Shown here: one piece after another, positions 9,915-20,954 of the stretch
How positions within the stretch are numbered: the stretch's first letter is position 1
Layout of the letters: every line of letters starts with the position of its first letter
Virus record (IMG/VR): IMGVR_UViG_3300028610_001204
Location: 1 to 21,005 of that record
Source of the DNA: a virus
Strand: one strand, 5' to 3'
Length of the DNA: 21,005 bases
The notes under the pieces: model-generated
Database searches by the model: none
Told to the model about the DNA's origin: nothing
The model's input: the letters and a program-made list of their open reading frames with translations, nothing else
Position numbers and translations under genes: made by a program

Positions 9915-10892
9915 GTGGCAACGCACGAAGTCATTATCGGCCTGGGCGCGTCGTTCGATCTCACCGATCCCGGCGTGCCGGTGTCGGCGGAGCTCGGCGC
10001 GTCGTTCGATCACACGTTCGCGCCAATTCAGAATCTCGAGCTCACGCTCGGGCTCGGGTTCTCGAGCCGGCTGATCGCGCAACGGGGCGATCAGAATCTC
10101 AACGTGGTGCCGTTGCTCGGCGGCGCCCTGACCGAGCAGGAAGGCCGCACGACGCACGTTCAACCCTACCGGGTGACTGGCCTATCCGACGCGCTGGATC
10201 CGCTCCAGCGGCTCCTGGAGGCGCGCGAGGCGCCAGGCGTGCCGCTCGATAAGTCCGCGCACCCGTTCAAGCCGGGGATCATCGTGATCGATCGCCGCGC
10301 GGCGTTCGAGGTCGCCGGCGACACCCGCGCGGACAACTCGCGCGTGGTGGTCGATGTCACCTGGGGCAATCCGCTCGCGTCGGATCTCGACAAGTCCGGG
10401 GGCGTGTCCGGGGGCGGCGTGTTCTCGATCACTCCGAGCACCTACACGGAGTCGGTGTTTCGCGACAAAGACGGCGTAGTGATGCGGGTTTTTTACCAGT
10501 TATTCTTCTCCACATTTTCGCGGACCATCCTCGCCGATCTCCAGCGGCAAACCTGGACGGCGACCCTCACGAAAGAATTCAGTTCTCCGCAATGGGTCGA
10601 TATCCGGCGCGCCGGCCAGGTCAACTCGATCCCGTTCGGCGTGTTCGGCACCCGTGAGCTCCTGTTCTTGGGGCCGACGCTAAACGAAACCGACGAGGGG
10701 GTCTTTTCGCACGGTTACCAGTTCACCTACAACCCGGACACTTGGGTCTTGCGTGAGGGCGTGTTCGGCAAGGGCGGGATCCCGGACAACGCGACCGAAA
10801 TCTTTAATCCGCCGAGCTCGCCGGGGGGGCTTGGGATTTTCAATATTTACAAGGAATTCGATTTTGCCGATCTCCCGGTGTTTTTCCCGTGA
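9915..10892 (+). CDS. Tail tip / baseplate-type protein with N-terminal 20-residue repeats
   Basis: This 325-residue protein starts at a GTG directly after the tape measure stop (TAA GTG), with no clear ribosome site, so translation is probably coupled. I do not recognise a named family for the main body, which is beta-rich (PGIIVIDRRAAFEVAGDTRA, VVVDVTWGNPLASD, VFYQLFFSTFSRTILADLQRQ); position suggests a distal tail or hub-associated part. The first 55 residues contain about two and a half copies of a 20-residue unit (IGLGASFDLT..., AELGASFDHT..., LGLGFSS). These match the repeat of the fibre-like protein at 17089-20043, including exact 17- and 18-nt stretches. The rest shows no repeats. The stop overlaps the next start (GTGA). 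Confidence 0.65.
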   Translation: MATHEVIIGLGASFDLTDPGVPVSAELGASFDHTFAPIQNLELTLGLGFSSRLIAQRGDQNLNVVPLLGGALTEQEGRTTHVQPYRVTGLSDALDPLQRLLEAREAPGVPLDKSAHPFKPGIIVIDRRAAFEVAGDTRADNSRVVVDVTWGNPLASDLDKSGGVSGGGVFSITPSTYTESVFRDKDGVVMRVFYQLFFSTFSRTILADLQRQTWTATLTKEFSSPQWVDIRRAGQVNSIPFGVFGTRELLFLGPTLNETDEGVFSHGYQFTYNPDTWVLREGVFGKGGIPDNATEIFNPPSSPGGLGIFNIYKEFDFADLPVFFP

Positions 10893-11302
10893 CGGTCAAA
10901 CCGCCGCTCGCCGGCCAGCCGATCTCGAGCTCGCAATGGTTACAACCCGTGGCCGCGGCGATCAACCGTCTCGAACACAGTGTCTCGACGGCTAAGACGC
11001 CAGACGCCGAGAGTCCGCCAGAGAATGTCGGGATCGAATCCGGCGTATTCGTCGCCGAGCAATCACAGACGATCACAGTCACGCGCGATAGCGACGGGGA
11101 GCTCGTGACGCTCGCGAAGCCGCCCAACTTGCGCGGCAATATCGCCACGCGGATCAACGGCGACGGCGACACGGAGGAAATATTTAGAGCGTATGCGATC
11201 GGCGACGTGATCTTGTTTGCCGATGTGCTGGTGACGGGCGTCGCCGATGTGACGCTTGCCGATCTCAACTGGCACGCGCGGCGATGGACTATCGAAGTCT
11301 GA
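10889..11302 (+). CDS. Unknown tail-region protein
   Basis: This is a 137-residue protein I do not recognise. The start is GTG at 10889, overlapping the upstream stop (GTGA). The N-terminus contains GQPISSSQWLQPVAAAINRL, a pattern often seen at the start of small phage virion proteins, in which a short helix precedes a beta domain. The second half is beta-like: SQTITVTRDSDGELVTLAKP, then RAYAIGDVILFADVL and a final strand WHARRWTIEV. No signal peptide or membrane segment is visible. It overlaps the next gene by 19 nt. Position after the tape measure suggests a tail-tip component. Confidence 0.65.
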   Translation: MTVKPPLAGQPISSSQWLQPVAAAINRLEHSVSTAKTPDAESPPENVGIESGVFVAEQSQTITVTRDSDGELVTLAKPPNLRGNIATRINGDGDTEEIFRAYAIGDVILFADVLVTGVADVTLADLNWHARRWTIEV

Positions 11303-12249
11303 CCTTTCCGCGCTTGGCGCTCATTGATCCCACGAGCGCGATCAATCTTCACGCGAACCGAGAAACGACCGAGCGGCGGCGCGAGGCGGATCTAATCGGC
11401 GCCGGCGGCGAGGCGAACGTACTTATCGAGCTGATCTTTGATGCGGTTGAATTTGGCTCGTCAAAAATTACGCTCGTCACGCACGGCGATGGGACGGCAC
11501 TATTCACGAGCTCGACAAAGCTCGACATTTACGATCACACCGATTCGCTCGACGAAAACGATCGGGCGTTCAGTAGCAGTAGCTTCGACGCTTCTACAAC
11601 GTATGACAAATTCAATGGCGCCGAAACGATCGACACGCCTGACGGCTTCACGGAGTCAGTGTACGCGCTCGGCGTCGGGGGAACGTGGTGGCGGGTCGAG
11701 GTGTTGGCGACGGGCGACGACGCGCTGATCGTGGAATACGATCGGATCGGCCAGGGCTTGAGTACCGATCTCGGAACCAGCGCGGAGAAACGGTATTACG
11801 ATCTCGGGCCGTGGCAATATGGGCTAACGCAAGCGAACGACATATTTACAACGACTGTCGGAACAGCGCCGAAAGACTGCGCCGATGATACCTTTCACGA
11901 CACGGTGCCGGACGATTACCACCGGCTCCGAATGTCAGTCCCGCGCGTGCTCGATGATCTATCGACGCCTGGCGGGGACGTCACATTCCGCCACATGCAC
12001 AAGAACGAAACGATCACCATGAACGGCGCGCCCGTTGATCCCGTGCTCCCGTGTTACTCGAAAATCGGCGGGCAGAAGGGTCTCGGGGGGACAAGTCATT
12101 GGGACGGCAACGATATGGCGGCGATCGCCAAGCTCACGGGATCGCCGTTCACCTATCGGCCGGATGTGTTTGTGCGCGTCGAGAGTCCTTATCTCGGATG
12201 GAGCGGCGACGGCACCGGGACGATCGTCACGGTGGTCAAATTCGGATAG
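11284..12249 (+). CDS. Unknown tail-region protein, last gene of the late operon
   Basis: This 321-residue protein is not assigned to a family. The ATG at 11284 lies 19 nt inside the previous gene and has only weak upstream purines. Visible features are a charged N-terminus (LHANRETTERRREADL), repeated beta-strand-like stretches with many Asp, Thr and Gly (SSKITLVTHGDGTALFTSST, GGTWWRVEVLATGDDALIVE), and VTFRHMHKNETITMNG. There are only two cysteines (residues 200 and 259 by count) and no membrane segment. It could be a tail-tip or receptor-contact protein. It ends the rightward operon and converges with the minus-strand lysis genes 66 nt away. Base use looks slightly less GC-rich around 11540-11620 (Ser/Thr-rich stretch). 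Confidence 0.65.
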   Translation: MDYRSLTFPRLALIDPTSAINLHANRETTERRREADLIGAGGEANVLIELIFDAVEFGSSKITLVTHGDGTALFTSSTKLDIYDHTDSLDENDRAFSSSSFDASTTYDKFNGAETIDTPDGFTESVYALGVGGTWWRVEVLATGDDALIVEYDRIGQGLSTDLGTSAEKRYYDLGPWQYGLTQANDIFTTTVGTAPKDCADDTFHDTVPDDYHRLRMSVPRVLDDLSTPGGDVTFRHMHKNETITMNGAPVDPVLPCYSKIGGQKGLGGTSHWDGNDMAAIAKLTGSPFTYRPDVFVRVESPYLGWSGDGTGTIVTVVKFG

Positions 12250-12278
12250 GCCACCGTAAGGGGGTGCCGGATTCGATC

Positions 12279-12300
12279 GCTCCTGGGGCCGTACAGGAGC
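12279..12300. terminator. Stem-loop between convergent operons
   Basis: GCTCCTG (12279-12285) and CAGGAGC (12294-12300) form a perfect 7-bp stem with an 8-nt loop. The stem lies in the 66-nt gap between the rightward tail operon (stop 12249) and the leftward lysis operon (stop 12316), so it could act on both transcripts. There is no T run on either strand, which weakens the case for an intrinsic terminator. Confidence 0.4.
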
Positions 12301-12315
12301 TCCTGGGCGGCCGGA

Positions 12316-12552
12316 TCAGTCCTGGGCGGCGCGATCCGCCGCGGCCACCGCCTGTAAGCGCGCCGAGAGAGTCGCCGTTTTTGCGTCCAGGGCCTTCCAT
12401 TCGTCCGGTGACGGCGTGCGGTTCTCGCGCACCATAACCGGGATCAGCGCCAGATCGTCGCGCAAGCCGGCCAGGAGCTCGGGGGCGTGTTGGATAGCCA
12501 GCAACGTGAGATCGAGGATCTTGATACCGAATAAAAAGATCGCGGGGTTCAT
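12316..12552 (-). CDS. Small membrane protein at the end of the lysis operon
   Basis: This is a 78-residue protein with an N-terminal hydrophobic segment (MNPAIFLFGIKILDLTLLAI, residues 1-20), followed by a mostly helical soluble part ending in an Ala/Asp-rich tail. One membrane segment with a cytoplasmic or periplasmic tail is likely. GGAGGG lies 7 nt before the ATG at 12552, and the ATG overlaps the stop of the lipoprotein gene by 4 nt. In this operon it could be a holin or antiholin type protein or another lysis accessory; no family is recognised. It is the last gene of the minus-strand operon. Confidence 0.65.
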   Translation of the reverse strand: MNPAIFLFGIKILDLTLLAIQHAPELLAGLRDDLALIPVMVRENRTPSPDEWKALDAKTATLSARLQAVAAADRAAQD

Positions 12553-12938
12553 TGTGTGACCCTCCCGGCCAGGAGCTCGGATTGGAATTGCGCCAGCAGC
12601 TTGCGGACCACGCCGATGGCGTCGGCTTGCGCGTCACCGCCGGCGGCCAGGCGCGCCACGCTCAAGGCCGCGGTGATCTGTTTATCCAGGCCGGCCAGGG
12701 CGGCGACCACCTGGGCGTCGTGGCACGCGATCACCACGAGCTCTGTACAACGCTCCTGCTCGGCGTAGACGAGCGCGCCGGCGAGGGCGGCGTTGTACGT
12801 CACCTGGATCTCATACAGCGTGTGGGCGGGCGTCATGGCCGCCCTGGTGGCCGGGTCGATGTTCGAGGGGCACGCCGACATGGCGGCCACGAGCACGACA
12901 ACCAGAGCGAGGCCAGAGAAAAAGCGGCTTCTATTCAT
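12549..12938 (-). CDS. Small lipoprotein, possible o-spanin
   Basis: This 129-residue protein begins with a clear lipoprotein-type signal: MNRSR, then a hydrophobic core (FFSGLALVVVLVAAMS) and a lipobox-like AMSAC with Cys at residue 23. After processing it would be anchored in the outer membrane. The mature part is helical and Ala-rich (TLYEIQVTYNAALAGALVYA) with two more cysteines in RCTELVVIACHD. GGAG lies 9 nt before the ATG at 12938. Next to an M15 peptidase and a membrane-anchored coiled-coil protein, an outer-membrane spanin role is reasonable, although it is longer than typical o-spanins and lacks their usual Pro-rich stretch. The lipoprotein call is firm; the spanin call is inference. 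Confidence 0.75.
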   Translation of the reverse strand: MNRSRFFSGLALVVVLVAAMSACPSNIDPATRAAMTPAHTLYEIQVTYNAALAGALVYAEQERCTELVVIACHDAQVVAALAGLDKQITAALSVARLAAGGDAQADAIGVVRKLLAQFQSELLAGRVTQ

Positions 12939-13297
12939 GGCAGGGATCTCCGTTCGTGTGGGTCGAATTCAACGTGAAGATGATCGCTCTCGAGGACAAT
13001 ATCGAACTGATCGCGGAGTCGGTGCTGGATCACGCGCGCGGCTTCGGCGGCACGGTCGTTCACGGCGCCGCCGTCGATCTCAAAGCGTAGCGTCCAGCGC
13101 CGATAGTCGATCGCCTTGACGCGCACCGGGTCGATGGTATGGAGCGAGCGCGGGCCGTGCCGGCCGTCGCCGACGCTCGTGATCACGAGCTCGAGGGCGC
13201 CGAGCTCCTGGTACACGGCCGCGACAACAGCATCCGCGATCAGCATTTCGGGCGCCAGGCCGGCCAGCGACACGCCGGCTTTAATCTTGCGGATCAC
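12935..13297 (-). CDS. Endolysin-like M15 family peptidase (variant)
   Basis: This 120-residue protein probably cleaves the peptide part of peptidoglycan at lysis. It matches the short phage M15-type pattern: an N-terminal KAGVSLAGLAPEMLIA, then TSVGDGRHGPRSLH with candidate zinc ligand H53, an Asp in KAIDYR (D64), and a C-terminal SDHLHVEFDP with H106/H108. In the usual SxHxxGxAxD motif the His and Asp are 7 residues apart; here they are 11 apart (H53 to D64) and the Gly is replaced, so the loop is longer. There is no signal peptide, so export would need a holin or similar. The start is GTG at 13297, overlapping the previous stop (GTGA). Confidence 0.75.
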   Translation of the reverse strand: MIRKIKAGVSLAGLAPEMLIADAVVAAVYQELGALELVITSVGDGRHGPRSLHTIDPVRVKAIDYRRWTLRFEIDGGAVNDRAAEAARVIQHRLRDQFDIVLESDHLHVEFDPHERRSLP

Positions 13298-13635
13298 TTC
13301 TCGAGGGCCTCGATGATCAGGGCCATTTGCGTGAGTAGCTGTTCTTTCCGCACCGCGTCCGTGGGGAACGGCCGGCCGGCATTCTCGCGTTCATAAATGG
13401 CATTCAGTTCCATCGTGACATTCTGCAACCGGATCGCCTCGATATCGCGCGTGAGCTCGGCGGCCGTTTGCGCCTGGGCGAGCTCCAGTTCGGCCACGTC
13501 GGCACGGCGCGCGGCGCCGGCGCGGGCCTGGTACTGGGCCGCGGCCTTGATCGTCTGGTAGCGATCTTCGAGAAAATATCCGCCGCCTACGGTCGCAATC
13601 AGGATGGCGAGGGCGAGAGTCACGGGGATCTTCAA
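13294..13635 (-). CDS. Membrane-anchored coiled-coil protein, possible i-spanin (Rz-like)
   Basis: This 113-residue protein has an N-terminal membrane segment (PVTLALAILIATVGGGYFLE, about 4-23), then a long helical, probably coiled-coil region (DVAELELAQAQTAAELTRDI and beyond) ending without a second membrane segment. That is the plan of an inner-membrane spanin such as Rz, and the lipoprotein two genes downstream could be its partner. The start is TTG at 13635, overlapping the upstream stop (TTGA); a GTG four codons in is an alternative. Neither has a strong ribosome site. Small single-span lysis regulators share the same plan, so the spanin call is moderate. Confidence 0.65.
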   Translation of the reverse strand: MKIPVTLALAILIATVGGGYFLEDRYQTIKAAAQYQARAGAARRADVAELELAQAQTAAELTRDIEAIRLQNVTMELNAIYERENAGRPFPTDAVRKEQLLTQMALIIEALEK

Positions 13636-13835
13636 GCGGCGCCAGCCTGGCGGGCGACGGCAAGCCGGCGCTCGAGATCCGCGATGCGGGTATTCAGCAC
13701 AACCCTCTCCCGTTCATGGCTTCGGATCGTACCGATCGCACGGGAAAAGAGAAGGGCCATTTTCGGCCAGTCGCGGGTGGCGTTGAGCTCACGCAGAAGC
13801 TCGTCGGCGTTCAATCGGGGAGTTGCGCGGTGCAT
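13632..13835 (-). CDS. Small helical protein, first gene of the lysis operon, unknown
   Basis: This is a 67-residue protein with the pattern ADELLRELNATRDWPKMALL, then SHERERVVLNTRIADLERRL, a probable heptad coiled coil in the last third. It has no membrane segment or signal peptide. GGAG (in TTTTTGGAGC) lies 9 nt before the ATG at 13835. It is the first gene after the proximal 26-bp box (13856-13881), whose minus-strand TATAGT could serve as a -10. I do not recognise a family. A regulatory or lysis-accessory job is possible from position. Confidence 0.65.
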   Translation of the reverse strand: MHRATPRLNADELLRELNATRDWPKMALLFSRAIGTIRSHERERVVLNTRIADLERRLAVARQAGAA

Positions 13836-13855
13836 GGTCTAATGCTCCAAAAAGT

Positions 13856-13881
13856 GCGCTGTCCCACTATAGGCGGGACAG
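13856..13881 (-). promoter_or_regulatory. 26-bp box, proximal copy: promoter/operator for the lysis operon
   Basis: The box contains a perfect inverted repeat, CTGTCCC (13859-13865) and GGGACAG (13875-13881), around a 9-nt centre. On the minus strand the centre reads CCTATAGT, containing a -10-like TATAGT, and a TTGAAC lies 19 nt upstream of it. The lysis operon starts 21 nt further on. A palindrome covering a -10 is a common design for repressible promoters. A second copy, matching at 23 of 26 positions, lies at 13944-13969. Promoter or operator function is inferred. Confidence 0.55.
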
Positions 13882-13943
13882 TCGAAGCCGGTTCAAAGCG
13901 ATCGCCTTAAGGGGGGTCCGCCGGATCGACGGTGCCGGATCTC

Positions 13944-13969
13944 GCGCTGGCCCACTATGGGCGGGACGG
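13944..13969 (-). promoter_or_regulatory. 26-bp box, distal copy
   Basis: This is a direct copy of the box at 13856-13881, differing at three positions, with the core CCCACTATGGGCGGGAC on the plus strand. It lies 88 bp away in the same 208-bp gene-free stretch (13836-14043). Its inverted repeat is less perfect. The minus-strand -10-like sequence is CATAGT, weaker than in the proximal copy. With the proximal copy it may form a pair of binding sites for one regulator; the winged-helix protein at 14475-15050 is the only obvious candidate in the window. Confidence 0.5.
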
Positions 13970-14043
13970 CGCGATTTCTGGAAAGCGGCTCCGCGGCTAT
14001 TGGTGCAGCGCCGCGGGGCCAATTCCCGGACTGCTTAGATTTT

Positions 14044-14220
14044 CTAAAGGGTGCCGTGTCCCGTCGCATAATTCTCCAGGGCCTCGATCGGCGTCTCGCC
14101 GGCGTGATATTGAGCTCGGAAAACGCTTAAATCAAGGGGCAAACTCAACCCGCCGCGCGTGGCGAGCTCCTCGATTCGTTCGGTCCAGTCGGAAAAATCC
14201 AGGGTCTCGCAAGTGTCCAA
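14044..14220 (-). CDS. Small acidic protein with TTG start, unknown
   Basis: This is a 58-residue ORF. The start is TTG at 14220 with a good ribosome site (AGAGG, 8 nt upstream), and no ATG or GTG is available before an in-frame stop further upstream. The protein begins MDTCETLDFSDWTERIEELA and ends YHAGETPIEALENYATGHG. It is acidic and helical, with no membrane segment. It follows the zinc-ribbon gene by 33 nt and is the last gene before the gap containing the two 26-bp boxes. No family is recognised. The coding call rests on the ribosome site, the protein-like composition and the tight fit in the operon. Confidence 0.6.
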   Translation of the reverse strand: MDTCETLDFSDWTERIEELATRGGLSLPLDLSVFRAQYHAGETPIEALENYATGHGTL

Positions 14221-14253
14221 ACGGATTACCTCTCTTTGTGCGTATAACGGATA

Positions 14254-14478
14254 TTATGACAAACGATCGCGGCATTCGGGGCGGCGCCTGTGCCACGTCG
14301 CGCCGTTCGAGCAATACGCGAAACCGGGCACGCGCGTGGAACAAATCAACAAAGCAGACCGAGAAGTCTTGGATCGCAAGCACCCGCAATTGCCACACTC
14401 CCAACGCTCGATCGCCGGGCCGCCGGGATATTGATCAATGCCGCACCGTTTCCACCAGTGGTTGCGCCGCCCGTTCAT
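14254..14478 (-). CDS. Small zinc-ribbon-like protein
   Basis: This 74-residue protein starts at the ATG at 14478, which overlaps the stop of the winged-helix gene (ATGA). It carries several cysteines: C12, then C28, C31 and C33 in WECGNCGC, and C46, C56 and C69. The last part, FAYCSNGATWHRRRPEC, resembles the end of small phage proteins that pair a CxxC knuckle with a 'DGxxWxxxxPxC' strand. It is basic and could bind nucleic acid or a host protein. Function is unknown; metal binding is inferred from the cysteine pattern. Confidence 0.65.
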   Translation of the reverse strand: MNGRRNHWWKRCGIDQYPGGPAIERWECGNCGCLRSKTSRSALLICSTRVPGFAYCSNGATWHRRRPECRDRLS

Positions 14479-15050
14479 GGTGCGAGCTCCAGGGCGATCT
14501 GCGTCAGATGCAAACGGCCTGGATCCGTGAGCTCCCATAATTGCCGGGCGCCTTTGCCGGCCTCGCGATCCTTATCTGCCACGCCGGCGAGGGCCACGAG
14601 CCCGGCTTCGGCCAACTTGGAATGGTACGGGCTGCAATTTTGCACCGGCAACCCGAGCCGCGCGGCGGTATCAAAGGCCGTGGCCGGGCCGTGCTCGAGC
14701 AAGTCCTGGAGGACGTGGAGAGCGCCGCCAGAGTGCGCGAACGCGCGCAGGGCCTGGTGACTGGTCTCCGGGTCCGTGGCGCGCGCGTGGAGCTCTCCGG
14801 CCGGCGTGGGCGCCTCTGCCGGGGCCTGGTGCTCGTCGGCGATCACGCGGAGCTCGTGTCCGTCGAACCAGAGGCGTTTCCGCTCGGCGGAACCGGGCAC
14901 GCCGCGGTGCTCGAGATAGTGGTGCTCGGAAAGCTGGAGGGCCTGTTTTTCGGTGACGGCGATCGGCTGGGCGCGCGCTCCCATGCGGTCGATATAACGG
15001 CGCAACGTGCGGACGATCACGAGTCGATCTTTTGTTGGTTCAATGTGCAT
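14475..15050 (-). CDS. Winged-helix DNA-binding protein, candidate phage regulator
   Basis: This is a 191-residue protein. The N-terminal half is short and charged (DRLVIVRTLRRYIDRM; SEHHYLEHRGVPGSAERKRL). The C-terminal half, from about residue 90, has the phage pattern ARATDPETSHQALRAFA followed by a winged helix: LHVLQDLLEHGPATAFDTAA, then NCSPYHSKLAEAGLVALA and a wing with GARQLWELTDPGR. The 'TDPETSH' lead-in is common in small phage DNA-binding proteins near early regions. The ATG at 15050 shares one base with the upstream stop (TAATG). It may act on the 26-bp boxes or on the divergent region at 15613-15715, but no binding site can be assigned from the sequence. Confidence 0.72.
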   Translation of the reverse strand: MHIEPTKDRLVIVRTLRRYIDRMGARAQPIAVTEKQALQLSEHHYLEHRGVPGSAERKRLWFDGHELRVIADEHQAPAEAPTPAGELHARATDPETSHQALRAFAHSGGALHVLQDLLEHGPATAFDTAARLGLPVQNCSPYHSKLAEAGLVALAGVADKDREAGKGARQLWELTDPGRLHLTQIALELAP

Positions 15051-15283
15051 TATTTTGATCCTTGTAGGACGACGGGAAAGCCGGCGTAAAAGGGCACCGG
15101 ATCGCCGGCCTCGCGGTGGTGGAGCTCGAGCAGATCGGCGGCATAGAGCGCGTCGATCTCGGGGCGGGTCAATGCGAGCCTGTCCGGCGGCCTCCCGTGG
15201 CGGCCACGGTACAGAATGAAGATATCGAGGCGCTCGGCCAGGGCCACGCCGGAAAGCGCGTGGTGGAGCTCCTGGGAGCTCAC
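15050..15283 (-). CDS. Small unknown protein of the early operon
   Basis: This is a 77-residue protein starting with GTG at 15283, overlapping the upstream stop (GTGA). The sequence is protein-like: VALAERLDIFILYRGRHGRP, then ALTRPEIDALYAADLLELHH and a C-terminal VPFYAGFPVVLQG. The helical segment in the middle could be a small DNA- or protein-binding unit. There is no membrane segment and no family I can name. It sits between the repeat-containing 110-residue protein and the winged-helix gene, all translationally coupled. Confidence 0.62.
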   Translation of the reverse strand: MSSQELHHALSGVALAERLDIFILYRGRHGRPPDRLALTRPEIDALYAADLLELHHREAGDPVPFYAGFPVVLQGSK

Positions 15284-15715: not shown

Positions 15716-16126
15716 GTGGCGGCGTCGGTTCGGTGGACACCTAACGTGGCCGCGGCACCTATCCAGCGCGAGCGCGCCGAAGCGCAAGCCGTGATCAAAC
15801 TCACCGCCGGGCGCTGGTGGGCGCGCGCGTTGCACCATTCCCCCAACGAAGAATTATCCAGCGCCGGCCGGCAACTGGCCGCGTCGCAGGGAACGAAGAA
15901 GGGTTTTCCCGATTGGATCCTGCCGATCCAGGCGGGGGAATACGTCGGCCTGGTGATCGAGCTCAAGGCAATGCGGCCGTATGGCAAACACCCGACGCGC
16001 GAGCAACGCGCGTGGCTCGAGTGGTTCACCGAGCAAGGGTGGCTTGCGAAAGTCTGCTACGGGGCCGAAGATGCCATTGCAACGCTGGACGCTTACGTTG
16101 CACTCGGCGCCGGCGGGCAACATTGA
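15716..16126 (+). CDS. VRR-NUC domain nuclease
   Basis: This 136-residue protein has a PD-(D/E)XK-type VRR-NUC core. Visible key residues are HHSPNE (about 40-45), KKGFPDW with D66, VIELKA with E82 and K84, and a conserved Gln in REQRAWLEWF (Q97), followed by LAKVCYGAEDAIATLDAYV. Phage VRR-NUC proteins are single-domain, about 90-140 residues, and are thought to cut structured or junction DNA in replication or packaging. The start is GTG at 15716 with CAGGA 8-9 nt upstream; a GTG at 15746 is an alternative. It is the only clear DNA-metabolism enzyme in the window apart from terminase, and it directly precedes the DnaA-box gap. Confidence 0.85.
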   Translation: MAASVRWTPNVAAAPIQRERAEAQAVIKLTAGRWWARALHHSPNEELSSAGRQLAASQGTKKGFPDWILPIQAGEYVGLVIELKAMRPYGKHPTREQRAWLEWFTEQGWLAKVCYGAEDAIATLDAYVALGAGGQH

Positions 16127-17088: not shown

Positions 17089-20043
17089 ATGGCTGACGTT
17101 ATAGCGCGCGTCGCGATCGGGGCCTCGCCGACAACCACCGGGTCGTTCACGCTCGGCGGTGGCGCGCTGCTGGGTGGCGCTACTCCTGTCGCGGCGTTAA
17201 TTGTTGCGAGCTCCGTCGCTGGCATCAACGCGCACGGCGGATTCTCCATCGGAATGACGGACGGCACCATTGAAGCCGCCCAAGGCTCGATGGATGAAGA
17301 TAACAAGGGGACCAGCGATAACGTCACTATTTGGCAAGAAAATCTCGTGGCTCTTTTGCCGGATCCGAATCAGGGAGGGCAATCGAAAGGAACGCGCTTT
17401 GAGGTCTCGTTTACGTCGTTTACGGCCGACACGATCACGCTCAATTGCGATCTCAATGAGGATTCCGAAGCGATTGAAATGATCGCGATCCTTTTTGCGG
17501 GGGATTCGGTCGGTGCTGATTGCAATGTGCAGGCGAGTAACGGCACCGTCAATTCGTCGGTGACTGTGACGCACAGCCTGGACGCCGCCGATTCTCAAAT
17601 CCATTTCCTGTGCGGCCTCTCAAATGCCAGCACGGGTGAAATCAATAGCCAATTCACCGGATTCGGCGTTGCTACTTGGGATGGATCAACTATCGGGCAG
17701 CACGCTGCCGGACGAATTTCGCCGGATGATTCAGGGACCGGCAATCCGAGCGCGTCGATCAGGGATACAACAGCGCGTTGCATGTTGCGATCGCACACGG
17801 GAGCGCAACAGTTGGAAGCGACAACAGTCACCAAGGACGCGATCACGCTGACAACGCGGAACAGTGGAACAGCAAACCGTTTCGGCATTTTATCGCTCGA
17901 TCTGGGCACCAATGGCGCCCACGTCTCTGTGATCGACGGCCCCGCGAATGCGACGAGCGATTGGGCGGTGACGGGGGTCGGGTTCCAGTCGCAGATATTT
18001 GGCCTGTTAATGACGGGGCTATTGTTTACTGATCTACAACGAACAACGCCAGAGGCGGCGGGATTTGCCTTCGGCGCGCAGGACGCCGACGACAATATCC
18101 GCGCGTGCGCCACAAATTCAGAATCAGCAGCCGCCACGACGAACACCGAATCGGTGACGCAAACCGCGAGCGGCGAGCGTTTTCTGGCATTGCGCGATCA
18201 TGATTCCGGATCGGCGCGCTGGCACGCGCTTTCCGAGGGCGCGGCCGTCGCGACAATTGATTCTGACGGCTTTGATGTGGTGGCCGCCGATATCAACACC
18301 GCGGTCGCCGCGACAAAATACCTCCTATGGGCCATCGAGGAAGATTCGGCCGGGGCCACGCACGAAGTGGCGGCCACGCTCGCGGCGTCGGGGCAAATAA
18401 CCGCCGCCAACATACTCACCGCCGAAGTGGCCGCGACGCTCGCGGCTTCGGGCAATATCACCGCGGCCGTGCAACATATCGCGCATGTCTCGGCGACGCT
18501 CGCGGCCTCGAGCGAGATCGTGGCCGCTGCGGGGAATGTGACCGACCAGGCGTTGACGCTGGCGGCCTCGAGCAACCTCACGGCCGTCGCGGGCCTCGCC
18601 ATTGACGTGGCGGCCGTGCTCGCGGCTTCGGGCAATATCACCGCCGCGCAACTCTTAACGGTGGAAGTGTCGGCCACGCTCGCGGCGTCGGGCAATATCA
18701 CCGCGGCCAATATCTTGACGGCCGAAGTGGCGGCCGTGATCGCGAGCTCCGGGGATTTCACCGCCGCCGGGGCCCTGGTGACGGATCAGGCGATCACGCT
18801 GGCGAGCTCCGGCAATATCACCACGGCCGCCGAACTGGTGGCCGAAGTGGCGGCCGTGCTCGCGGCTTCGGGCAACCTCACAGCGATCGCGGAAATTGTC
18901 GGGGGCACGATCCACGAAGTAGCGGCGACGCTCGCCGCGTCGGGCAATGTGACGGCCGCGGCGTCTTTCGTGGCCGAAGTGTCGGCCGCGCTGGCGGCTT
19001 CGGGCAACCTGGCCGCGGATGCGGGCCTGGTGACGGATCAGGCGTTGACGATCGCGGCCTCGAGCAACTTGACGGTGCTCGAGCAAGCCGATTTTGACGG
19101 CCAGGCGACGCTCGGCGCCTCGTTCGAGATCACCGGGCTCTCGCAAGCCGTTTTTGATGGTGCTTTGACCCTCGCGAGCTCCGGCGATATCACGGCGATC
19201 GCCGGCGCCGTGTCAGACCAGGCGGCCGCGCTCGGCGCGTCGTTCGACGCCGACGCCCTGGCCGACGTAACACTTGAAGTGGCCGCCACGCTCGCGGCCT
19301 CGAGCAACCTCACGACGCTCTCACAAGCCGATCGCTCCGCGGCGTTGACCCTTGCCGCGTCGGGGGATATCACCGCCCTGGGCGCCCTGGTGACGGATCA
19401 GGCGTTGACGATCGCGGCCTCCATGAACCTCACCGCGGCCGCCGGCCTGGTGGCGGATGTGGCGGCCACGCTCGCGGCCTCGAGCAACCTCACGGCCACG
19501 AGCGAGATCACGATCGAAGCCGCGGCCGCCCTGGGCGCGTCGCTCAACCTGGCGACGGCCGCAAGCCTGATCGCCGAGGTAGACGCGACGCTCGCGGCCT
19601 CGAGCAACCTCACAACGGCCGCCGAGCTCCTGGCGGAAGTAGCGGCCACGCTCGTGGCCTCGCTCGATATGGAGAGCCTGGGGGAGCTCGAGGCGATCGA
19701 AGTATCGGCGAGCCTGGGCGCGTCGTTCAATATCACGACGGCGTTTGACTACATCGGCGAGGCGCTCGTGACACTCGGGTTCTCGAGCGAGCTCACGGCC
19801 GCGAATATCGCCACGCTCCTGGCGGATGCGGGGATCGCGTTCCGGGGCGAGATCACGCCGATCGCCGGCCTCGAGCTCACCGTCGCCGCCGATCTCTTGT
19901 GGTCGGCGGATATCGTCGGCGTGGGATCGACCATCATCGGGACGCTCGACACGCCCGATGGCCGGAAAATAATTATCCTCGCGGACAACAGAACGGTTAC
20001 AGTACTCGAGGACACGCGGACGGTGATCCCGCTCGCGGAATGA
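17089..20043 (+). CDS. Large fibre-like protein with 25 tandem 20-residue repeats
   Basis: This 984-residue protein is the largest in the window and the best candidate for a tail fibre or host-contact protein. Residues 1 to about 425 look like three related beta-rich domains of 115-135 residues. Comparable points are GFSIGMTDG, GFGVATWDG and GFAFGAQDA, each followed by an Asp/Thr-rich stretch and a last strand such as EMIAILFAGD, FGILSLDLG and KYLLWAIEED. Residues 429-933 are 25 units of a 20-residue repeat (consensus ATLAASgNiTAa..L..eVa). The end, residues 934-984, has a short domain with IIGTLDTPDGRKIIILADNR and RTVTVLEDTRTVIPLAE, a tail-protein ending I have seen in other phages. The array has no Lys or Cys and very few charges. 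Fibre function is inferred. Confidence 0.8.
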   Translation: MADVIARVAIGASPTTTGSFTLGGGALLGGATPVAALIVASSVAGINAHGGFSIGMTDGTIEAAQGSMDEDNKGTSDNVTIWQENLVALLPDPNQGGQSKGTRFEVSFTSFTADTITLNCDLNEDSEAIEMIAILFAGDSVGADCNVQASNGTVNSSVTVTHSLDAADSQIHFLCGLSNASTGEINSQFTGFGVATWDGSTIGQHAAGRISPDDSGTGNPSASIRDTTARCMLRSHTGAQQLEATTVTKDAITLTTRNSGTANRFGILSLDLGTNGAHVSVIDGPANATSDWAVTGVGFQSQIFGLLMTGLLFTDLQRTTPEAAGFAFGAQDADDNIRACATNSESAAATTNTESVTQTASGERFLALRDHDSGSARWHALSEGAAVATIDSDGFDVVAADINTAVAATKYLLWAIEEDSAGATHEVAATLAASGQITAANILTAEVAATLAASGNITAAVQHIAHVSATLAASSEIVAAAGNVTDQALTLAASSNLTAVAGLAIDVAAVLAASGNITAAQLLTVEVSATLAASGNITAANILTAEVAAVIASSGDFTAAGALVTDQAITLASSGNITTAAELVAEVAAVLAASGNLTAIAEIVGGTIHEVAATLAASGNVTAAASFVAEVSAALAASGNLAADAGLVTDQALTIAASSNLTVLEQADFDGQATLGASFEITGLSQAVFDGALTLASSGDITAIAGAVSDQAAALGASFDADALADVTLEVAATLAASSNLTTLSQADRSAALTLAASGDITALGALVTDQALTIAASMNLTAAAGLVADVAATLAASSNLTATSEITIEAAAALGASLNLATAASLIAEVDATLAASSNLTTAAELLAEVAATLVASLDMESLGELEAIEVSASLGASFNITTAFDYIGEALVTLGFSSELTAANIATLLADAGIAFRGEITPIAGLELTVAADLLWSADIVGVGSTIIGTLDTPDGRKIIILADNRTVTVLEDTRTVIPLAE
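18373..19887 (+). repeat. Tandem array of 25 x ~60-bp coding repeats
   Basis: The 1515-bp array is 25 units: 23 of exactly 60 bp, one of 72 bp (unit 9) and one of 63 bp (unit 22). Each encodes a 20-residue unit starting at [A/L/V]xLxAS. DNA identity between some units is high, with stretches such as CTCGCGGCCTCGAGCAACCT recurring several times, so the array is probably still expanding or shrinking by slippage or recombination. Later units (from about unit 12) diverge more, with the variant LGASF in place of LAASG. Array length may differ between isolates and may be mis-assembled from short reads. Confidence 0.92.
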
Positions 20044-20076: not shown

Positions 20077-20646
20077 GTGAACCTATTAGGTCGAATCCGC
20101 GCCAAGCTCGGCGCAACCGCGCAGGCGATATTCCGAAGTCACGCGGGCCTCGCGTCTATTTCGTTCCGAAACCATTATCACGTCGAGTGTTTCGGGCCGG
20201 ACGGCGTTCTCAAATGGGAAGATCATTGCGACAATCTCGTGATGGATGTGGGGCTCGATGAGTACCTACAGCGGATCTGGAAGTCGAGTGCCTTCACGGC
20301 CGCCGATTTTATCGGGCTCACGGACGACACGCCGACGATCGTTGCCGGCGACACCGCGTCGAGTCACGCCGGATGGATCGAGGCGCAAGGCTACACAGAG
20401 GGCACGCGCGAGGCGTTCGTGCCGGGCACCGTGTCGGCGCAATCGGTGGACAACAGCGCGAGCAAGGCTTCGTTCTCGATCAATGCGGCCGACACGATCG
20501 GGGGCGCGTTCGCAATAGACGAAAGCACCAAGGGCGGCACGACGGGGATCCTGATCGGCGCTGCCGCGTTCAGTGGCGGGGATAAGGTGGTCGCCAATCT
20601 CGACACGCTTAACGTGACAGTCACGAGCACGGCCGCGAGTCCGTAA
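20077..20646 (+). CDS. Virion-associated protein, tail/fibre module
   Basis: This 189-residue protein starts at a GTG with GAGGG 8 nt upstream. It follows a pattern known from many phage structural genes: FRNHYHVECFGPDGVLKWED, then NLVMDVGLDEYLQRIWKSSA, FIGLTDDTPTIVAGDTASSH with AGW, SQSVDNSASKASFSINAADT-like core, GTTGILIGAAAFSGGD and a last strand LNVTVTSTAA. Such proteins are annotated as structural or hypothetical, and I do not know their exact role. A beta-sandwich that assembles on the tail or head surface is likely. It is encoded between the fibre-like protein and a small adaptor, consistent with a distal tail module. Confidence 0.75.
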   Translation: MNLLGRIRAKLGATAQAIFRSHAGLASISFRNHYHVECFGPDGVLKWEDHCDNLVMDVGLDEYLQRIWKSSAFTAADFIGLTDDTPTIVAGDTASSHAGWIEAQGYTEGTREAFVPGTVSAQSVDNSASKASFSINAADTIGGAFAIDESTKGGTTGILIGAAAFSGGDKVVANLDTLNVTVTSTAASP

Positions 20647-20648
20647 CA

Positions 20649-20954
20649 GTGGCGGGGATAGTCGCCTATCCGAGCGACGGGGCGGGCGCCATTGACGTGG
20701 CGCCCGTCGATCCCGACGCGATCATTGATTACATAATCGATTGGACTAAGTGGCTCGCCGGCGACAACCTCGCCACGAGCGCGTGGTCGATCGCCAACGC
20801 CACGGAAGCGAGCTCGGCGAGCACCACGAAAACCGCGACCGTGTTTATCTCGGCGGCCAAGCCGGGGAAGGTGGTCACGATGCGAAACCGGATCACGACG
20901 GCCGGCGGCCGCACCGAGGATCGCACGCTTCGCGCCCTGGTCCGTGAAAAGTAA
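20649..20954 (+). CDS. Fiber-tail adaptor-like small protein
   Basis: This 101-residue protein starts at a GTG 2 nt after the previous stop, with no clear ribosome site, so coupled translation is likely. The pattern DYIIDWTKWLAGDNLATSAW, then an Ala/Thr-rich middle, TATVFISAAKPGKVVTMRNR and ITTAGGRTEDRTLRALVREK, matches small phage proteins described as fibre-tail adaptors: a beta-sandwich with a conserved 'DW..WL..D.I..S.W' start and 'NRITTA.GRTDDR' end. Length is typical. It is the last gene before the genome junction; the stem-loop with the T run completed at 11-25 lies about 35 bp further on. Confidence 0.78.
   Translation: MAGIVAYPSDGAGAIDVAPVDPDAIIDYIIDWTKWLAGDNLATSAWSIANATEASSASTTKTATVFISAAKPGKVVTMRNRITTAGGRTEDRTLRALVREK

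Follow-up and report, generated by a model that had tools for sequence, protein, structure and literature searches.

The window analysed here, 21,005 nucleotides long, is a complete virus record (IMGVR_UViG_3300028610_001204) and carries a morphogenesis module made up of terminase subunits, a portal, a protease-capsid fusion, a neck-type protein and a tape-measure-like protein. On its + strand, an open reading frame at 17089-20043 encodes a protein of 984 residues with a non-repetitive N-terminal region (residues 1-425, 17089-18363, +), a tandem array of 26 units of 20 residues (residues 426-950, 18364-19938, +) and a short tail. This tail ends in an R-box, a set of C-terminal 9-residue repeats of the form R-x-phi-x-phi-x-x-[ED]-x (RKIIILADN RTVTVLEDT RTVIPLAE; residues 959-984, 19963-20040, +). 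Two genes follow on the same strand: one for a 189-residue phrog_8123 protein (20077-20646, +; PHROG E = 3.7e-23), and beyond it one for a 101-residue fibre-tail adaptor of the Gp77 family (20649-20954, +; PF23148 E = 1.3e-17), whose 64.5 bits lie above the curated cut-off of 27. A solved relative in the same family, Gp77 of podophage GP4 (8jou_D), was matched using the family profile (E = 1e-12); it corresponds to the partner of the array protein, not to the array, and sequence searches found no structure of a GP4 array. Further upstream, the ORFs 3' of the tape-measure-like gene (9915-15090) have no PHROG or Pfam match, and a VRR-NUC or Holliday-junction-resolvase-like gene (15716-16126) lies within the late region, shortly before the appendage genes.

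The array, delimited by a unit table, spacing and periodicity, is strongly regular. Its self-similarity at lag 20 lies 20 standard deviations above shuffles (z = 20), with harmonics at 40, 60 and 80, and a leucine or isoleucine recurs at residues 431, 451 and so on to 896, 916 and 936. The original prediction of 25 tandem 20-residue repeats was right about the array but short by one, the count being 26, with 24 canonical units and two degenerate ones at the C-terminal end. Its description of the spacing holds: 23 of the 25 intervals measure exactly 20 residues (60 bp), and the two exceptions are an interval of 24 residues after unit 9, where four residues are inserted (606-609, 18904-18915, +), and one of 21 residues after unit 22, with a single inserted residue (870, 19696-19698, +). 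The units had also been called near-identical in DNA, which is incorrect. Pairwise identity between the 24 canonical units averages 57% (range 38-82%, the best pair being units 1 and 6), and Tandem Repeats Finder reports two stretches only, at 64-65% match; we therefore reject a recent expansion and consider the duplications old. At the protein level, the canonical units average 45% identity, and identical residues share their codon in 56% of cases against 41% expected, so that the shared origin of the units can still be recognised, though it is old. All 24 canonical units have S9, and L6, A8, T13 and the acidic character of position 1 are strongly conserved. The array is therefore made of units duplicated long ago and maintained under constraint since. 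The proposed division into early LAASG and late LGASF units survives in part: LAAS dominates along the whole array, while the LGAS units (13, 15, 20 and 23) are confined to the second half, where they are scattered.

None of the Pfam, PHROG and NCBIfam profiles matches the 984-residue protein, which bears out the earlier view of a repeat without a named family. The whole protein, the array and the N-terminal region found no homolog in the phage collection (in part up to E = 10), nor did the prokaryote genome collection contain a homolog of the array protein. Scans with the unit alignment found nothing. IMG/VR held no convincing homolog, only two contigs with SGNITAGN repeats, whose weak match to the array we judged to be chance or convergent; these contigs (L002 and L003) carry giant fibre-like proteins built of SGNITAGN-type repeats. 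Residues 1-425 have neither periodicity nor a family or homolog, and contain strands in a low-confidence structure model.

It was the surroundings of the gene and its C terminus that led to relatives. In other phages, the neighbours of Gp77 or phrog_8123 homologs include proteins with a periodicity of 20-22 residues, and all of these end in an R-box except PVS_14 of a Vibrio phage, the motif being loose in DSL-LC06 and Wilder. PVS_14 (Vibrio phage VS-ABTNL-3, L013:10338-11324) has an array with a 21-residue period and a phrog_8123 homolog directly downstream. The proteins beside the phrog_8123 homologs of AP1, ctwe8250 and Rollin have no such array. In the window, the strict R-box pattern occurs once, and it matched in 0 of 20,000 shuffles of the array protein. 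The third repeat deviates from it with a proline at position 5.

IMG/VR was scanned with a DNA pattern that requires three R-box units in a row and is blind to arrays and adaptors; this returned 82 loci. Among them, 57 ORFs are longer than 150 residues and have the R-box within 60 residues of the stop. An array (called at z >= 4) precedes the R-box in 49 of these 57, compared with 14 of 407 control ORFs, several of the 14 being the very members that had supplied the lead. We define the class by a tandem period of 18-24 residues, a range that holds the period of 20 (z = 20) in the array protein, together with a C-terminal R-box and a neighbouring Gp77-family gene on the same strand; the fundamental period of the 49 arrays is 20 in 17, 21 in 14, 22 in 10 and 23 in three. 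Of the 49 array loci, 42 have a Gp77-like ORF on the same strand, often immediately downstream, as the window does; the evident simple-repeat matches of the scan have none. These counts take in near-duplicate contigs (L063/L082/L084 and L038/L071/L075/L085), so the independent cases are somewhat fewer. The array, the R-box and the gene order recur together in many phage contigs. BLAST of the array and the N terminus against the R-box ORFs gave nothing.

Isolates that carry members of the class are the Burkholderia phages BcepIL02 (gp56) and BcepMigl (gp57), phage DSL-LC06, Mae-JY22 of Microcystis and, through its gp24, mycobacteriophage Wilder. The two Lessievirus proteins, BcepIL02 gp56 and BcepMigl gp57, belong to phrog_19041, a virion structural protein, and resemble the array protein in their units of about 20 residues (a peak at lag 20), some of which read L-x-x-[ST]-G-N, and in their C-terminal R-box. 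They differ from it in having only about 10 units, a short N terminus and no phrog_8123 gene seen adjoining. The Gp77-family gene follows gp56 immediately in BcepIL02, whereas in BcepMigl a pectin-lyase-like gene intervenes. Wilder gp24, filed as a minor tail protein (phrog_9784), shares the period of 20 and the C-terminal 9-residue arginine repeats; unlike the array protein, it has a Gly-rich N-terminal domain (PF21722) and no unit similarity, and its Gp77 homolog, gp22, sits two genes upstream rather than downstream. The gene order of the window is reproduced most fully in two metagenomic loci, L069 (IMGVR_UViG_3300027861_001531) and L041, which have a 20-residue array, R-box, phrog_8123 and Gp77 in the same succession but differ in their N-terminal domain, have fewer units and show no BLAST-level similarity to the array protein. 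When the unit profile of the array protein was compared with column-permuted profiles, it fitted better in L069 (8 of 3000 permutations), ctRVW222, DSL-LC06 and, of the two Lessievirus proteins, BcepMigl only; most other arrays of the class fail this test.

Comparison of relatives within the class shows how the arrays change in length. In relatives, a shared anchor and the R-box often lie equally far apart, even at 38-57% identity, and where they do not, one-unit steps are seen: 21 residues between L030 and L075, and 22 residues between L067 and L080 at 88% identity. L020 and L057 differ by 9 residues, about one R-box 9-mer, and distant pairs show larger steps. The whole-unit steps suggest that unit number changes by gain or loss of whole units, which agrees with the growth by unit duplication foreseen in the original prediction. 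Its suggestion that repeat number tunes fibre length gains only partial support, as the number is usually conserved among class relatives, even at about 40% identity, with one-unit changes only on occasion; unit number looks to be held by selection.

Taken together, we consider it fairly probable that the array protein has a structural role in a tail appendage, either a fibre or a spike. Residues 1-425 would form the head, which probably binds the host surface, the 26 units would form the shaft, and the R-box repeats would face the virion, joining the protein to the Gp77-type adaptor either directly or via the phrog_8123 protein. The array would have arisen long ago through duplication of whole 60-bp units and would now be kept at a set length. 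The fibre-like nature already ascribed to the protein gains support from the adaptor gene downstream and from the recurrence of this layout in many phages, and the PHROG assignment of isolate members to virion structural or minor tail proteins favours a role in the virion. Since this exact protein has no known homolog, each functional step is argued by analogy, and this applies to virion location, outward N terminus, host-binding head and oligomeric state alike. For the polarity, the analogy is a single fusion in ctRVW222, where about eight similar 20-residue units come after a domain homologous to the N terminus of L069 and before a C-terminal tail-protein domain. This order puts the array between N-terminal domain and tail, and the N terminus of the array protein would thus probably point outward. 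The fused protein (MW202478.1, L101:3965-5923) is annotated as 'tail tubular protein A', and its N-terminal part consists of a head domain and some eight Thr/Lys-rich 20-residue units. For the head, the analogy is an array protein (L039:4566-6440) whose N-terminal domain matches NCBIfam GTA_spike_fiber (E = 5e-28); by this comparison, the N terminus is probably a head, and the match connects the class to the head spikes of gene transfer agents. Other points count against the appendage reading: the unit similarity to other arrays is weak, with few of them passing the permutation test; AlphaFold2 yields helices, not strands; and the virion proteome list of the related phage JC1 does not include gp54 (PMC9144972), the neighbour of gp55. 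JC1 gp55 itself, which is 90% identical to the Gp77-family protein of BcepIL02, was detected in virions by mass spectrometry (PMC9144972), which speaks for the appendage reading.

What kind of shaft such an array would build is a matter on which model and relatives disagree. AlphaFold2, given four unit-aligned rows, returned helical hairpins throughout (pLDDT 78, pTM 0.67), and helices also appear in the single-sequence model of all 984 residues, which is uninformative as a whole (pLDDT 41). This raises the possibility of an alpha-solenoid with a single helix of about 17 residues per unit and turns at S9-G10-N11; the shaft would then be a superhelix of short helices, unlike the usual phage fibre shafts, though such a fold may be compatible with an appendage-shaft role. 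The composition of the array fits, with 28% alanine, no proline and 71% of 17-residue windows compatible with a helix, and the hydrophobic periodicity and moment favour a helix at unit positions 12-19. The same analysis favours a strand at positions 1-9, however, the Asp-Gln and Asp-Gly pairs of positions 1-2 land midway along the predicted helix, and most other arrays of the class contain too much proline or glycine for 17-residue helices. The prediction varies across the five models (pLDDT 55 to 78), Foldseek found no match to the array model at E <= 0.001, and AlphaFold given few rows leans to helices for Ala-rich repeats. We regard the alpha-solenoid as unlikely overall, an alpha fold being possible for this Ala-rich member as modelled, and lean towards a beta-structured trimer for the shaft of the class. 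The beta-strand shaft originally envisaged is thus favoured by the relatives and contradicted by the sole structure prediction for these units.

A different beta architecture is suggested by the best PDB sequence match, the putative lipoprotein 3jx8, which we take to be a head-GIN (DUF2807) beta-helix. By analogy, the array would be a monomeric, right-handed solenoid with one coil per 20 residues. The alignment is nearly gapless over 115 residues, with a common L-A-x-S-G-[NE]-I about every 20 residues, and profile comparison gave P = 4e-4 at a probability of 36%. The phmmer E-value of 0.013 is marginal, though, Pfam has no head-GIN match to the protein up to E = 1, the structure model is helical and the S-G-N pattern is missing from other class members. 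The match hints at a beta-helix and is too weak to file the array there; we hold this fold to be improbable, more so than the alpha-solenoid. That the array is a disordered, low-complexity linker is highly improbable: it is Ala-rich, parts of it are masked as low complexity and the full-length model is low in confidence, but a linker without a defined fold is hard to reconcile with an invariant S9 and conserved L6, A8, T13 and acidic residue 1 at 57% DNA identity, with the regular hydrophobic pattern, or with the array length kept among relatives of other members. A triple beta-spiral of the adenovirus type was rejected, because it needs a repeat of about 15 residues and a conserved Gly/Pro turn; the period here is 20, no proline is conserved and position 10 is glycine in only about half of the units.

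Beyond the appendage reading of this one protein, we tentatively propose, with rather less confidence, that proteins with an array and an R-box form an undescribed and widespread class of appendages of reversed polarity. Their N-terminal binding head would point outward, the C-terminal R-box would dock on the Gp77 adaptor, and the shaft, with a fold not among the solved structures, would have its length fixed in full steps of 20-24 residues and maintained by selection. Repeat shafts attached via an adaptor are known already. The repeat class with its R-box signature has no name in the profile libraries searched, the literature searched gave no description of it, and the PHROGs that hold a few of its members are labelled tail, virion structural or unknown. 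Sequence search cannot keep up with the fast evolution of repeat shafts, which leaves many phage tail genes unannotated. The R-box offers a short, searchable signature that recovers a whole class of such proteins along with the likely attachment protein, and the members come from proteobacterial, cyanobacterial and actinobacterial phages. With relatives that differ by zero or exactly one unit, the class is suited to testing how fibre length is set and how it serves host contact.

In trimeric phage fibre tips, metal-binding H-x-H motifs are known to sit on the axis. Three members with 22-residue arrays (L061, L093 and Mae-JY22) carry H-x-H in strict register with a spacing of 22; the copies number 18 in L093:6284-8182, seven in L061 and six in L015:744-1421. 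This suggests that metal ions are held along the fibre axis in these arrays.
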